The notes below the pieces were generated by a model. That model did not search any database. It saw nothing but the letters and a program-made list of their open reading frames with translations, and was not told where the DNA came from. From Streptomyces sp. WMMB 322 (GTDB lineage Bacteria > Actinomycetota > Actinomycetes > Streptomycetales > Streptomycetaceae), in NCBI RefSeq assembly GCF_900090145.1, contig NZ_FMHI01000002.1:186001-250000 (forward strand): a DNA stretch of 64,000 nt, given 5' to 3'. The translations under genes and the position numbers were made by a program. Shown one piece after another: positions 17,386-22,078 of this stretch. The stretch's first letter is position 1; each line of letters opens with the position of its first letter.

Positions 17386-18411
17386 ATGCTGGCGAATGTG
17401 AAGTCGGACCGCCTGCTCTCGATTCTCCTGCTTCTCCAGACCCGTGGCCGCGTGCCCGCCGACGAGCTCGCACGCCGCCTGGAGGTCTCCGCCCGCACCA
17501 TCTACCGCGATGTCGAGTCCCTCTCCGCCGCCGGCGTCCCCGTCTACGCGGAACGCGGCAGACACGGCGGCATCTCGCTGCTCGCGGGGTTCCGCACCGA
17601 CGTCACCGGCCTCACCTCGAACGAGGCTCGCGCGCTGTTCGTACTCGCCGCACAGGGCGCACACTCGGCACTGGGTCTGGACGGCGCGCTCGGTTCCGCC
17701 CTGCGCAAGGTCATGGCCGCGCTGCCCGCCCCGCACAGGCCCGCCGCGGAACTCACCAGCCGCCGCATCCTCGTCGACCCCGACAGGTGGCTGGCCCGGC
17801 CGCGGCCGTCCGTCGACCTCGACACCCTCAACACCGCCGTCTTCACGGACCGGCGGCTGCGCATCCGCTACAGGCACGGCGGCGAGACCACCGCGCACAC
17901 CTACACGGTCGACCCGTACGGCCTGGTGGCGAAGGCCGGCACCTGGTATCTCGTGGCGGACCGGCGCGGCCGTGCCCAGCTCTTCCGCGCGGACCGCGTC
18001 CTGGAGGCGACCGTGACGGATGCGCCGGTGCAGCGGAGGAAGGGCGTCGAACTCGCCGACGCCTGGGAGGTGTTGCGGCGCCAGGTGGAGGAACGGCCCG
18101 CGAACGTACGGATCGAGGCGCGCGTCCGCCGTCGGCGCCTGGAGATGTTCCGGCGGATCGTCGGCCCGTTCGTGCTGGACGTGCACGACCGGGCAGCGGC
18201 CGGGGAGGAGGCGGCGGAACCGGGCGACGACGAGTGGGTGCCCGTCGAGGTCGCCTACCCGGTGCTGTCCGCCGTCCGCCAGCTCCTGCAGTTCGGCGCG
18301 GACGTCGAGGTCACCGGACCGGCGGAGGCCCGCACCGAACTCGCCGGCGCGGCAGCGTCCCTCACCGCCCTGTACGGCGGGGCGGGAAGGGACGACCAGG
18401 GCTGCCGGTAG
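17386..18411 (+). CDS. WYL domain / HTH_11 transcriptional regulator (YafY type)
   Basis: A 341-residue regulator. Residues about 6-60 form a DeoR-like winged helix (SDRLLSILLLLQTRGRVPADELARRLEVSARTIYRDVESL), followed by the YafY linker and a WYL domain near residues 140-210 (RIRYRHGG...YTVDPYGLVAKAGTWYLVA) and a C-terminal WCX region. WYL domains sense nucleotides or single-stranded nucleic acids in characterised cases. Start ATG 17386 is close to the dyad at 17360-17374; GTG 17398 is an alternative. It is divergent from the DinB-like and FAD oxidoreductase genes and probably represses them and itself. Confidence 0.9.
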   Translation: MLANVKSDRLLSILLLLQTRGRVPADELARRLEVSARTIYRDVESLSAAGVPVYAERGRHGGISLLAGFRTDVTGLTSNEARALFVLAAQGAHSALGLDGALGSALRKVMAALPAPHRPAAELTSRRILVDPDRWLARPRPSVDLDTLNTAVFTDRRLRIRYRHGGETTAHTYTVDPYGLVAKAGTWYLVADRRGRAQLFRADRVLEATVTDAPVQRRKGVELADAWEVLRRQVEERPANVRIEARVRRRRLEMFRRIVGPFVLDVHDRAAAGEEAAEPGDDEWVPVEVAYPVLSAVRQLLQFGADVEVTGPAEARTELAGAAASLTALYGGAGRDDQGCR

Positions 18412-18450
18412 GGCACGCCGGGCCTGCCGGACTCCCCGCCGGACTCCCGT

Positions 18451-19305: not shown

Positions 19306-20579
19306 TCGCTCACCGGCTCCAGAAGCTCCCGCCCGCCCAGATAGGGACGGAGCGGTTCCGGCACCCGGACGGAACCGTCGGCCTGCTGGTGGTTCTCCAG
19401 CAGCGCGACGATAGTGCGGGGCACGGCGCACAGGGTGCCGTTGAGCGTCGCCAGCGGGCGCACCTGCTTGCCGTCGCGCATCCGGACGGACAGCCGCCGG
19501 GACTGGAACTCGGTGCAGTCGGAGGTCGAGGTCAGCTCGCGGTACTTGCCCTGGGTCGGGATCCACGCCTCGCAGTCGTACTTGCGGGCCGCGGAGGAGC
19601 CGAGGTCGCCCGTCGCCACGTCGATCACCTGGAAGGGCAGCCCGAGCCCGGTGAGCCACTGCTTCTCCCACTCCAGCAGGCGCAGATGCTCGGCCTCGGA
19701 CTCCTCGGGCGCGACGTAGGAGAACATCTCGACCTTGTCGAACTGATGGACGCGGAAGATGCCGCGGGTGTCCTTGCCGTACGAACCGGCCTCGCGCCGG
19801 AAGCAGGGCGAGAAGGCGACGTAGCGCAGCGGCAGCCGCGAGGCCTCGATGATCTCGTCCATGTGGTAGCCGGCGAGGGGGACTTCGGACGTGCCGACCA
19901 GGTACAGCTCGTCCTTCTCCAGGTGGTAGACGTCCTGCGCGGCCTGGCCGAGGAAGCCGGTGCCGTCCATGGCCTGCGGCTTGACGAGTGCCGGGGTCAG
20001 CATGGGCGTGAAGCCCGCCTCGGTGGCCTGCGCGATCGCGGCGTTGACCAGGGCGAGTTCCAGCAGGGCGCCGACGCCGGTGAGGTAATAGAAGCGCGAG
20101 CCGGAGACCTTCGCACCCCGCTCGACGTCGATCGCGCCGAGCAGCTGCCCGAGTTCGAGGTGGTCCTTCGGCTCGAAGCCCTCCGCGGCGAAGTCGCGGG
20201 GCGAGCCGATCGTCTCGCGGACGGTGAAGTCCTCCTCGCCGCCGACCGGTACGTCGGGATACACGACGTTGCCGAGCCGGCGCAGCAGGCGCTGGGTCTC
20301 CTCGGCAGCCTCGTTCTGCTCGGCGTCGGCGGCCTTCACGGCGGCGGACAACTCGCCTGCCTTCTTGAGCAGTTCGGCCTTCTCGTCGCCGTCCGCCCTG
20401 GGGATCAGCTTGCCGAGCTGCTTCTGCTCGGAGCGCAGTTCGTCGAACCTGACACCGGACGACCTTCGCCGTTCGTCGGCGGCGAGGAGGGCGTCGACGA
20501 TGCCGACGTCCTCTCCGCGGGAGCGCTGGGATTCGCGGACGCGGTCGGGGTCGTCGCGGAGGAGTCGGAGGTCAATCAC
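19302..20579 (-). CDS. serS: seryl-tRNA synthetase
   Basis: A 425-residue class II aminoacyl-tRNA synthetase. The N-terminal coiled-coil tRNA-binding arm spans about residues 30-105 (heptad-rich, [10 protein letters not shown]...[11 protein letters not shown]). The catalytic core shows motif 2 in [21 protein letters not shown] and motif 3 in [20 protein letters not shown]. It charges tRNA-Ser and tRNA-Sec with serine. Start GTG 20579 ([12 protein letters not shown]) is the normal serS N terminus. A -10 TACCCT (20591-20586) ends six bases before it, so the mRNA is probably leaderless. It is followed by a 4-base overlap with the HAD gene. Confidence 0.97.
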
Positions 20580-20585
20580 CCCGCC

Positions 20586-20591
20586 AGGGTA
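20586..20591 (-). promoter_or_regulatory. -10 box of leaderless serS
   Basis: TACCCT on the minus strand fits TANNNT and ends six bases before the serS GTG, placing the transcript start at the start codon. Confidence 0.5.
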
Positions 20592-20799
20592 CCGGTGGGA
20601 CCGCGCCGGCTCGACCGAGTACCCGCCCCCGGGATTCGCGGAAACGGGCACGCCGCAACGGAGTCGAGCGCGGTGCGCGGGGCCGTCGGGGACATCGCCG
20701 AAGGCAGGCGCAGACGACGGCCGCGGGCGCCTTCACCTGCCATCTCACCGCTGCACGAAGGGAGTTGAGGAAGCGTCGGACAGCGGCGGGGCGGAGAAC

Positions 20800-20808
20800 T
20801 TATCCACA
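20800..20808 (+). promoter_or_regulatory. DnaA box, perfect TTATCCACA
   Basis: An exact match to the classical 9-mer DnaA box, 23 bases from a second exact copy in the same orientation. Confidence 0.75.
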
Positions 20809-20830
20809 GAGCATGCAACCCCTCGCGTTG

Positions 20831-20839
20831 TTATCCACA
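20831..20839 (+). promoter_or_regulatory. DnaA box, perfect TTATCCACA
   Basis: An exact match located in the loop of the CCCCTCG/CGAGGGG hairpin. A degenerate inverse box (TGTGGATTG) follows at 20856-20864. Confidence 0.75.
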
Positions 20840-21090
20840 GGAGATGCCGAGGGGCTGTGGATTGCGGAGGAGATCGTTCCTGGGAATCCGCCGCCACCCG
20901 GGAGATCCCGGAACAAACCTGTAATAAGCACTCATTCGAGGGGGGTTGACTCACACGGAAGAGGGACCTGAGGGAATTGCAGTGACGAAACCGCACGCCA
21001 CGCGTTGGGGACGCGTTTGTGGTCTCCATGTAGTTTTGTCCGTAACGCCCTTTTCGTTCCCGCTAGTTGTGCACAACCCACCCGAGAGCC

Positions 21091-21099
21091 TGTGGATAA
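21091..21099 (-). promoter_or_regulatory. DnaA box, perfect TTATCCACA on minus strand
   Basis: TGTGGATAA on the plus strand is an exact inverse box, 15 bases after the palindrome TTGTGCACAA, which differs by one base from the TTGTCCACA type on both strands. Confidence 0.75.
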
Positions 21100-21148
21100 C
21101 TTTGGGCGCCGCACGGATGTCCCTGCACAGCGCCGCGCACAGCCTCGT

Positions 21149-22078
21149 TCAGCCCCGCCCGTCCAGGCACCGCGTCAGCCAGTCGGCAGCCTCCACGAAC
21201 TCCGCGTCCGTCGTCCCCGGACGCTCCGGCGCGTGACCGCCGTCGGCACGCGGATACGAGCCGAGATAGCGCACCTGTTCGCAAGCGCGCTTCAGGCCCA
21301 TGAGCACGTCCCCCACCCGGCGGTCCTGCAGATGGCCCTCGCAGTCCACCGAGAAGCAGTAGCGGCCGATCCCCTCGCCCGTCGGCCGCGACTCGATGCG
21401 CATCATGTTCACGCCGCGCGACGCGAACTCCTGAAGCACCTCCAGCAGCGCACCCGGATGGTCGTCGCGCAGCCAGAAGACGACCGAGGTCTTGTCCGAA
21501 CCGGTCGCCGCCGCCGGCCGCGCCGGGCGTCCCACGAGGACGAAGCGGGTCGCCGCGTTGTCCGCGTCGTGGATGTCCGTCACCAGCGGCTCCAGCCCGT
21601 ACGTGGCCGCCGCGAACTCACCGGCGAACGCCGCGTCGTAGCGGCCCTCCTGCACCAGCCGCGCACCGTCCGCGTTGGACGCCGCGGACTCCCACAGCGC
21701 ATCGGGGATGTGCTCCGCCATCCAGCGCCGCACCTGCGGCTGCGCCACCGGGTGACCCGTCACGGTCTTGATGCTCTCCAGCGGGGTGCCCGGGCGGGCC
21801 AGCAGCGCGAAGGCGATGGGCAGCAGGACCTCGCGGTAGATCATCAGCGGGCGGCCGCTCGCCAGCTCGTCGAGCGTCGCGGTGACGCCGCCCTCCACCG
21901 AGTTCTCGATCGGCACGAAGGCCGCCGCGGCCTCGCCGTTGCGTACGGCGTCGAGGGCCACGGGCACGGACACCATCGGGATCAGTTCGCGGGTGGCGGC
22001 TTCCGGGAGGGTGCGCAGGGCGGCCTCGGTGAAGGTCCCCTCGGGACCGAGGTACGTGTAGCGGCTCGCTGATGACAT
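21149..22078 (-). CDS. pheA: prephenate dehydratase
   Basis: A 309-residue monofunctional prephenate dehydratase, converting prephenate to phenylpyruvate in phenylalanine synthesis. The catalytic domain starts with TYLGPEGTFTEAAL and contains FVPIENSVEGGVTATLDEL; a C-terminal ACT domain (about residues 195-275) carries the GALLEVLQEFASRGVNMMRIESRPT segment that binds phenylalanine for feedback control. Unlike the E. coli P-protein there is no chorismate mutase domain. The ATG at 22078 gives the expected N terminus. It lies between the DnaA-box spacer and the ABC operon's terminator. Confidence 0.96.
   Translation of the reverse strand: MSSASRYTYLGPEGTFTEAALRTLPEAATRELIPMVSVPVALDAVRNGEAAAAFVPIENSVEGGVTATLDELASGRPLMIYREVLLPIAFALLARPGTPLESIKTVTGHPVAQPQVRRWMAEHIPDALWESAASNADGARLVQEGRYDAAFAGEFAAATYGLEPLVTDIHDADNAATRFVLVGRPARPAAATGSDKTSVVFWLRDDHPGALLEVLQEFASRGVNMMRIESRPTGEGIGRYCFSVDCEGHLQDRRVGDVLMGLKRACEQVRYLGSYPRADGGHAPERPGTTDAEFVEAADWLTRCLDGRG

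Follow-up and report, generated by a model that had tools for sequence, protein, structure and literature searches.

In the 64-kb window analysed here (the whole stretch of DNA presented, at its full length), the minus-strand genes pheA and serS are separated by a spacer of 569 bp that contains a cluster of DnaA boxes (Table 1). A scan of the window located three exact copies of TTATCCACA, two in direct orientation (31 bp apart start to start, with 22 bp between them) and one inverted, and no further exact copy; matches with one mismatch occur at two other places. The GC content reaches a minimum of 56 % in the spacer, as opposed to 66–79 % across the remainder of the 19.5–22.5 kb region outside it. 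The boxes, a palindrome, a degenerate box and the low GC content of the spacer, all described in an earlier note on this DNA, were recovered by the scan. The whole genome (6,597,054 bases in 32 contigs) holds only 11 copies of TTATCCACA and 24 of TTGTCCACA, and the cluster therefore cannot be attributed to chance; by our own arithmetic from these genome-wide counts, the chance of three exact copies in 300 bp is of the order of 1e-6, in agreement with what the earlier note had asserted. A further claim, that the box at 20831 lies in the loop of a hairpin, did not hold, as the hairpin was no better than that of shuffled sequence (z -1.0), and a hairpin was rejected as the key feature of the spacer (z -1.0 and -0.3 against shuffled sequence). 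No Rfam RNA matched the window at gathering score, and a simple scan of 20400–21400 detected neither a sigma-70-type promoter nor a terminator. In searches of 150 and of 119 genomes, every genome had a relative of serS.

Table 1. Coordinates of the genes and of the parts of the element in the window
Feature	Position	Strand	Remark
serS, seryl-tRNA synthetase	19338..20579	-	ORF, its coding part serving as query; name given by eye and from synteny with sco3961 serS
Probable -10, TACCCT	20586..20591	-	Putative near-leaderless serS promoter, just outside the element
Box C2, TTATCCACA	20800..20808	+	Outer strong box of arm 2 (serS side); exact match
Box C, TTATCCACA	20831..20839	+	Inner strong box of arm 2; exact match; 260 bp from box A, the modal class
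Weak box P, CAATCCACA	20856..20864	-	Degenerate; faces box C
Conserved loop with non-DnaA landmarks	20865..21066	-	Consensus of 144 loci
Loop landmarks in this genome	GATC ~20875; GTTTG 20914-20918; CGAA 20935-20938; GTCA 20983-20986; G2 ~21037-21044		G2 degenerate
Stretch matching in position the ScbR2 site predicted for the S. coelicolor serS promoter	20971..20998	-	Candidate site by position
Weak box W, TGTGCACAA	21067..21075	-	Within the palindrome TTGTGCACAA (21067-21076); faces box A, 24 bp away
Box A, TTATCCACA	21091..21099	-	Strong box of arm 1 (pheA side); exact match
pheA, prephenate dehydratase	21149..22078	-	ORF; relatives found; named by eye and from SCO3962 being given as pheA (PMC6585502)

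The cluster had been described as far from any origin gene, which requires correction. The sole match to the DnaA C-terminal domain in the genome is located at C20:296,013-296,213, on the contig (C20) that also carries the window, and is followed by a box-rich spacer extending as far as a gene recognized by eye as dnaN (C20:296-297 kb); oriC thus lies only 89 kb from the cluster. The statement that dnaA is absent from the window is borne out by this position, which falls outside it. With its three exact boxes at 89 kb, the cluster has the at least three strong boxes outside but near oriC that characterize D78-type clusters, and it lacks the adjacent dnaA and dnaN that characterize oriC, dnaA being located at C20:296-297 kb.

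The genome-wide comparison of box density proposed in the earlier note revealed only two groups of at least three exact TTRTCCACA within 350 bp in this genome and two in genome G389, hence many equally dense clusters are not present. The second non-oriC group of this genome comprises three exact TTRTCCACA in 200 bp (C20:324,227-324,426, about 18227-18426 of locus L007), flanked by what appear by eye to be rhomboid protease and crgA genes; the DnaA domain and box-rich spacer at C20:296-297 kb rule out that this group is oriC. G389 has 51 exact TTRTCCACA, its two groups being the one upstream of serS and another 112 kb further (4282994-4283206) that resembles the C20:324 kb group. At C20:256674-256763, about 40 kb from oriC, one TTATCCACA and two facing TTCTCCACA are found within 90 bp.

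Mirror-image arms around a conserved loop

The element is composed of two mirror-image arms around a conserved loop and is single-copy, symmetric and in helical register. In the order from pheA to serS, arm 1 comprises an outer box A', box A and a facing weak box W, and arm 2 comprises the weak box P, the facing box C and then C2. In 73 of 140 loci, A' is present 12–13 bp before A and has no more than one mismatch. W, defined as the 9-mer just before the first GTCGAC, reads TGGGGAYAA in 103 of 132 loci, and its distance from A is 23–26 bp in 101 and 35–37 bp in 31 of these 132 loci. The distance from P to C, start to start, is 25 bp in 140 of the 142 loci having both motifs, and that from C to C2 is 29–33 bp in all 137 loci, of 144 aligned, in which both were found. 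The pairs A–W and P–C, each with the weak box 25 bp inside the strong one, consequently form inverted pairs of equal length (34 bp) in which the strong box is the outer one. In two loci (L010 and L148), a one-turn insert in arm 1 resembles, by eye, an extra copy of W ten bases from the first.

The arms are about 200 bp apart, and the consensus of the intervening loop (144 loci) includes GTCGACA twice (G1 and G2) as well as GTCA, CAAC, CGAA, GTTTG, GAATC and GATC as landmarks. A profile of the element matches its own locus weakly on the opposite strand (E 8e-7 in G093 and 0.004 in this genome), which fits the mirror symmetry of the arms. In the window, the distances from A are 55 (G2), 113 (GTCA), 161 (CGAA), 181 (GTTTG), 224 (GATC), 235 (P), 260 (C) and 291 bp (C2), and this register is modal for GTCA, CGAA, GTTTG, GATC, P, C and C2 despite the divergence of the landmarks, the first GTCGACA being lost, the second largely lost and CAAC lying about 18 bp later than expected.

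A PheA scan yielded 80 loci, of which one (L070) was dropped since the serS start was absent; a forward and a reverse box 200–400 bp apart were found in 78 of the remaining 79, in addition to the window. The family sample comprised 150 genomes from 17 genera, all 150 with a serS match, from which 120 upstream regions were taken. After removal of 15 duplicates from 200 loci, 185 distinct loci of Streptomyces and its relatives remained, and 167 of them have facing DnaA-box arms upstream of serS. The 18 loci without facing arms belong to g2, g5 and g15 (seven in all, with pheA absent within the 1.5 kb examined), g10 and g11 (four in all), g14 (4 of 11), g7 (1 of 35) and g1 (2 of 37); in the two armless-scoring g1 genomes, G286 and G280, the element profile still matches (E 1e-31 and 1e-44). 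In ten serS upstream regions from other families of the order, pheA and exact boxes were both absent from the 1.5 kb examined.

The strict arm pattern, with an A–C distance of 249–279 bp, occurs in 322 of 392 genomes of the genus, and the reversed control pattern in none of the 392. A profile search of 24 genomes returned one strong match (E 1e-31 to 7e-71) in ten of them, at least two of which (G000, which is this genome, and G013) had supplied rows of the profile, and nothing else above 31 bits in those ten. The strong match lies just upstream of the located serS in seven of the ten, the position of serS not having been located in the other three. The remaining 14 genomes gave weak matches only (E 7e-8 or worse), among them matches about 200 bp (G221) and about 1.8 kb (G212) from serS that are perhaps decayed or moved copies. 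In locus L128, a gene on the opposite strand, polysaccharide deacetylase-like by eye, lies between the box element and serS.

Spacing classes and the helical turn

The spacings within the element fall into classes about 10.5 bp, or one helical turn, apart. In the alignment of 144 loci, from which g3, g4, g12 and g14 (23 loci) were left out, the distances are 33–36 or 45–47 bp for A–G1, 21–23, 32–35 or 43–45 for G1–G2, 55–57, 65–69, 77 or 86 for G2–GTCA and 26–30, 37 or 47 for AAC–CGAA; the interval counts keep the loci with the motif at most 3 bases from its column (65 to 142 of 144; on the tree, 65 to 141). Each of the 11 non-modal classes corresponds to 0.86–1.08, 1.90–2.05 or 2.88 turns, and 84 of 86 single deviations of at least 4 bp are in phase. 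As the classes were formed by a 3-bp gap rule and the landmarks could shift by 3 bases, the procedure has no built-in preference for 10.5. The modal classes of two intervals are broad (GAAT–GATC, 28–35; GATC–P, 12–19). On a pheA tree of 168 loci, built without 17 of the 185 (five because pheA was short and 12 because the stretch lacked it), parsimony counts 32 changes, distributed as 4, 11, 8, 4, 1, 3 and 1 over seven intervals, with none in four others.

The same classes were obtained by alignment-free regular expressions, with A–G1 at 32–35 or 44–46 bp in 135 of 137 loci (56 and 57 in the other two) and G1–G2 at 21–23 or 32–35 bp in 100 of 100. A second sample, searched by pattern only, comprised 142 genomes among the matches listed, of which 134 were new by handle and some may be twins of named loci; the inner start was counted where there were two, and an opposite-strand match (G509) was left out. 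Within the search range of 249–279 bp, the A–C distances in this sample are 250, 256–261, 267–272 and 278–279 and nothing else, 132 of 134 being in phase, and 24 of the 25 non-modal distances are in phase as against 48 % by chance, kinship being ignored.

For the whole A–C distance, 127 of 140 loci, including 66 of the 75 non-modal ones, are in phase; the 13 off-register values are 255, 255, 256, 263, 267, 273, 274, 274, 276, 294, 295, 295 and 295. Disjoint sister pairs give a weaker signal for this distance, 19 of 29 being in phase (P 0.005). The distant genera g3 and g14 have arm spacings of their own (217–251 and 244–245 bp, respectively). An explanation of the off-phase distances of 285–306 bp as the choice of the outer box of a 13-bp pair was set aside, as it mends L096 (260) and not L014 (273); in other such cases the box taken as C looks by eye like C2 (L040), and some are unexplained.

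A predicted ScbR2 site within the loop

ScbR2 is a developmental regulator and a homologue of antibiotic-signalling receptors. The serS gene sco3961 is listed among 42 ScbR2 promoters confirmed by EMSA following from ChIP-seq, and the site printed for it in Table 2 of the same paper is a 28-mer that represents a MEME prediction and not a footprint (PMC4595836). This 28-mer of the S. coelicolor serS promoter occurs exactly in one of the 392 genomes of the genus, G389, where it occupies positions +101 to +128 from A, in the loop of an element upstream of serS that is fully canonical (A', A, W, both GTCGAC, P, C at 260, and C2). The next best match, in L097, has one mismatch and the same position (+101 to +128), and in the remaining loci at least four bases differ, so that ScbR2 may not bind throughout. 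The site predicted for ScbR2 in an S. coelicolor promoter that EMSA confirmed as a target falls within the loop, and ScbR2 may have a role there.

Candidate function of the phased element

Three clusters around the S. coelicolor oriC, H69, H24 and D78, were reportedly described by Smulczyk-Krawczyszyn in 2006 (J Bacteriol), D78 being said to bind tightest; its deletion is said to raise the origin-to-end ratio and to speed aerial growth, and extra copies are said to repress. The cluster on cosmid D78 is positioned, we assume, between pheA and serS. We infer that the present cluster very likely corresponds, in this genome, to the D78 cluster of S. coelicolor. One of the options offered by the earlier note, a local version of such a cluster, is supported by the presence of the same arms between pheA and serS in most of the Streptomyces loci compared, including G389. 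Three papers describe S. coelicolor DnaA-box clusters as repressors of untimely initiation, one of them placing the clusters 'close to oriC' (PMC4585315, PMC5742627, PMC10950094). Like D78, the cluster belongs to a Streptomyces, contains strong DnaA boxes near oriC and is one of two non-oriC groups; unlike D78, it is another species' copy, with mirror arms, a loop, a helical register and a candidate ScbR2 site that are undescribed for D78 as far as found. A limited literature search returned no description of these features and no passage naming D78 or its cosmid. The cluster itself is of a known kind and very likely a known locus, and the apparently new part is its phase-locked mirror-arm architecture, for which novelty in print is not claimed.

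Spacing that stays near whole turns implies that all the parts must lie on one face of the helix, a classic indication that proteins touch across DNA that is bent or looped. At the E. coli oriC, a one-turn change in the spacing of boxes is reported to be tolerated and a part-turn change to be highly detrimental (PMC4285127, citing Woelker and Messer 1993); unlike at that origin, the rule is seen here in the natural variation of a non-origin element and extends to non-DnaA landmarks. For Streptomyces DnaA, contacts through domain I and a long domain II have been proposed to link distant box clusters (PMC13270200). A looped DnaA complex is favoured by the whole-turn phasing together with the oriC precedent and this proposed bridging. 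The locus is therefore probably best read as a D78 orthologue, a single-copy cis element whose phased arms would be looped by DnaA and which would restrain initiation. DnaA would bind both mirror arms, A together with the weak W and C together with the weak P, with an extra outer box (A' or C2), and the fixed rotational register would allow DnaA on one arm to contact DnaA on the other across the loop of about 200 bp, which may also carry conserved sites for one or more other proteins. The complex would sequester or inactivate DnaA, and fewer initiations would follow. We infer DnaA binding at this locus, looping, sequestration or nucleotide hydrolysis, and second loop proteins from the arrangement of sites, and the helical phasing suggests a folded protein–DNA machine rather than a mere sponge.

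A plain titration sink, for which box number and affinity matter and spacing is incidental, appears unlikely. It would accord with the high local density of boxes and with the repression reported for extra D78 copies, but it needs neither loop motifs nor helical register, and both are conserved. Titration was the function suggested by the earlier note, and the part of that suggestion that makes the cluster a local version of the S. coelicolor type is supported, whereas plain titration is too simple in view of the conserved loop and the helical phasing, which point to a fixed architecture.

A real rival, albeit an improbable one, is that DnaA controls transcription of serS, whether or not the element also acts on replication, and that the complex touches RNA polymerase at a near-leaderless promoter. 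The serS promoter is probably of this type here, and in 128 of 148 tails GGTANCCT, the probable -10, precedes the serS start by 14–15 bp. Moreover, the distance between arm 2 and serS, examined as a third control, shows a preference for whole turns (23 of 34 pair differences, P 0.001), hence the complex may reach the serS promoter, or the spacer may have a constraint of its own, and part of the constraint may be transcriptional. On the other hand, the arms remain beside pheA in 7 of 14 g3 loci despite a spacer of 1280–1357 bp to serS, and the serS level reported for an scbR2 mutant is 0.947-fold even though ScbR2 binds the promoter (PMC4595836). Roles in replication and in serS expression could both be true, since E. 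coli datA is described as tied to transcription through it (PMC10950094).

It is very unlikely that the phasing arose as an artefact of mutation, for example from a bias towards duplications of 10–11 bp. Some inserts do resemble, as judged by eye, a weak box copied in tandem (L010, L148), but two neighbouring spacers of the same genomes lack such steps, with 11 of 28 in phase for pheA to A and 3 of 9 for the upstream gene to pheA (40 % expected in both; gene pairs farther from pheA, with two values each, were unusable as controls), and within the element hardly any insertion or deletion measures about half a turn (2 of 86 deviations). That the element is a cryptic or backup origin of replication is hardly credible, for despite box arms around a relatively AT-rich loop, the sole DnaA C-terminal domain and its box-rich spacer are 89 kb away, and clusters of this class are reported to repress initiation (PMC4585315).

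The looped, initiation-restraining element proposed here can be set beside other regulatory DnaA-box sites. In E. coli, an IHF site between the DnaA boxes of datA activates DnaA-ATP hydrolysis, and DARS1 and DARS2 exchange ADP for ATP on DnaA; the Streptomyces sIHF is not known to be sequence specific. Like datA, which is described as a non-coding DnaA-box cluster that restrains initiation, with an IHF site and transcription running through it (PMC10950094), the present element is a non-coding DnaA-box cluster, restraint being reported for the S. coelicolor clusters and proposed here, and it differs from datA in gene context. DARS1 and DARS2, which are given as non-coding DnaA-dependent regulatory sites (PMC4585315), are unlike it in that they reactivate DnaA, the Streptomyces clusters being reported to repress. 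The non-oriC DnaA-box clusters of Bacillus subtilis, likewise from a Gram-positive organism and likened by description only, are reported to repress initiation (Okumura 2012, cited in PMC4585315 and PMC5742627).

It is possible, though doubtful, that ScbR2 in the loop tunes the capture of DnaA by a stereospecific looped machine and thereby couples antibiotic or quorum signals to replication frequency, serS expression remaining unchanged. Non-oriC DnaA clusters are often described as sponges, and a helical register maintained over hundreds of genomes provides a simple, testable sign of a cluster that may act as a folded complex. The presence of a predicted ScbR2 site inside a DnaA control element may indicate a link between antibiotic signalling and replication.
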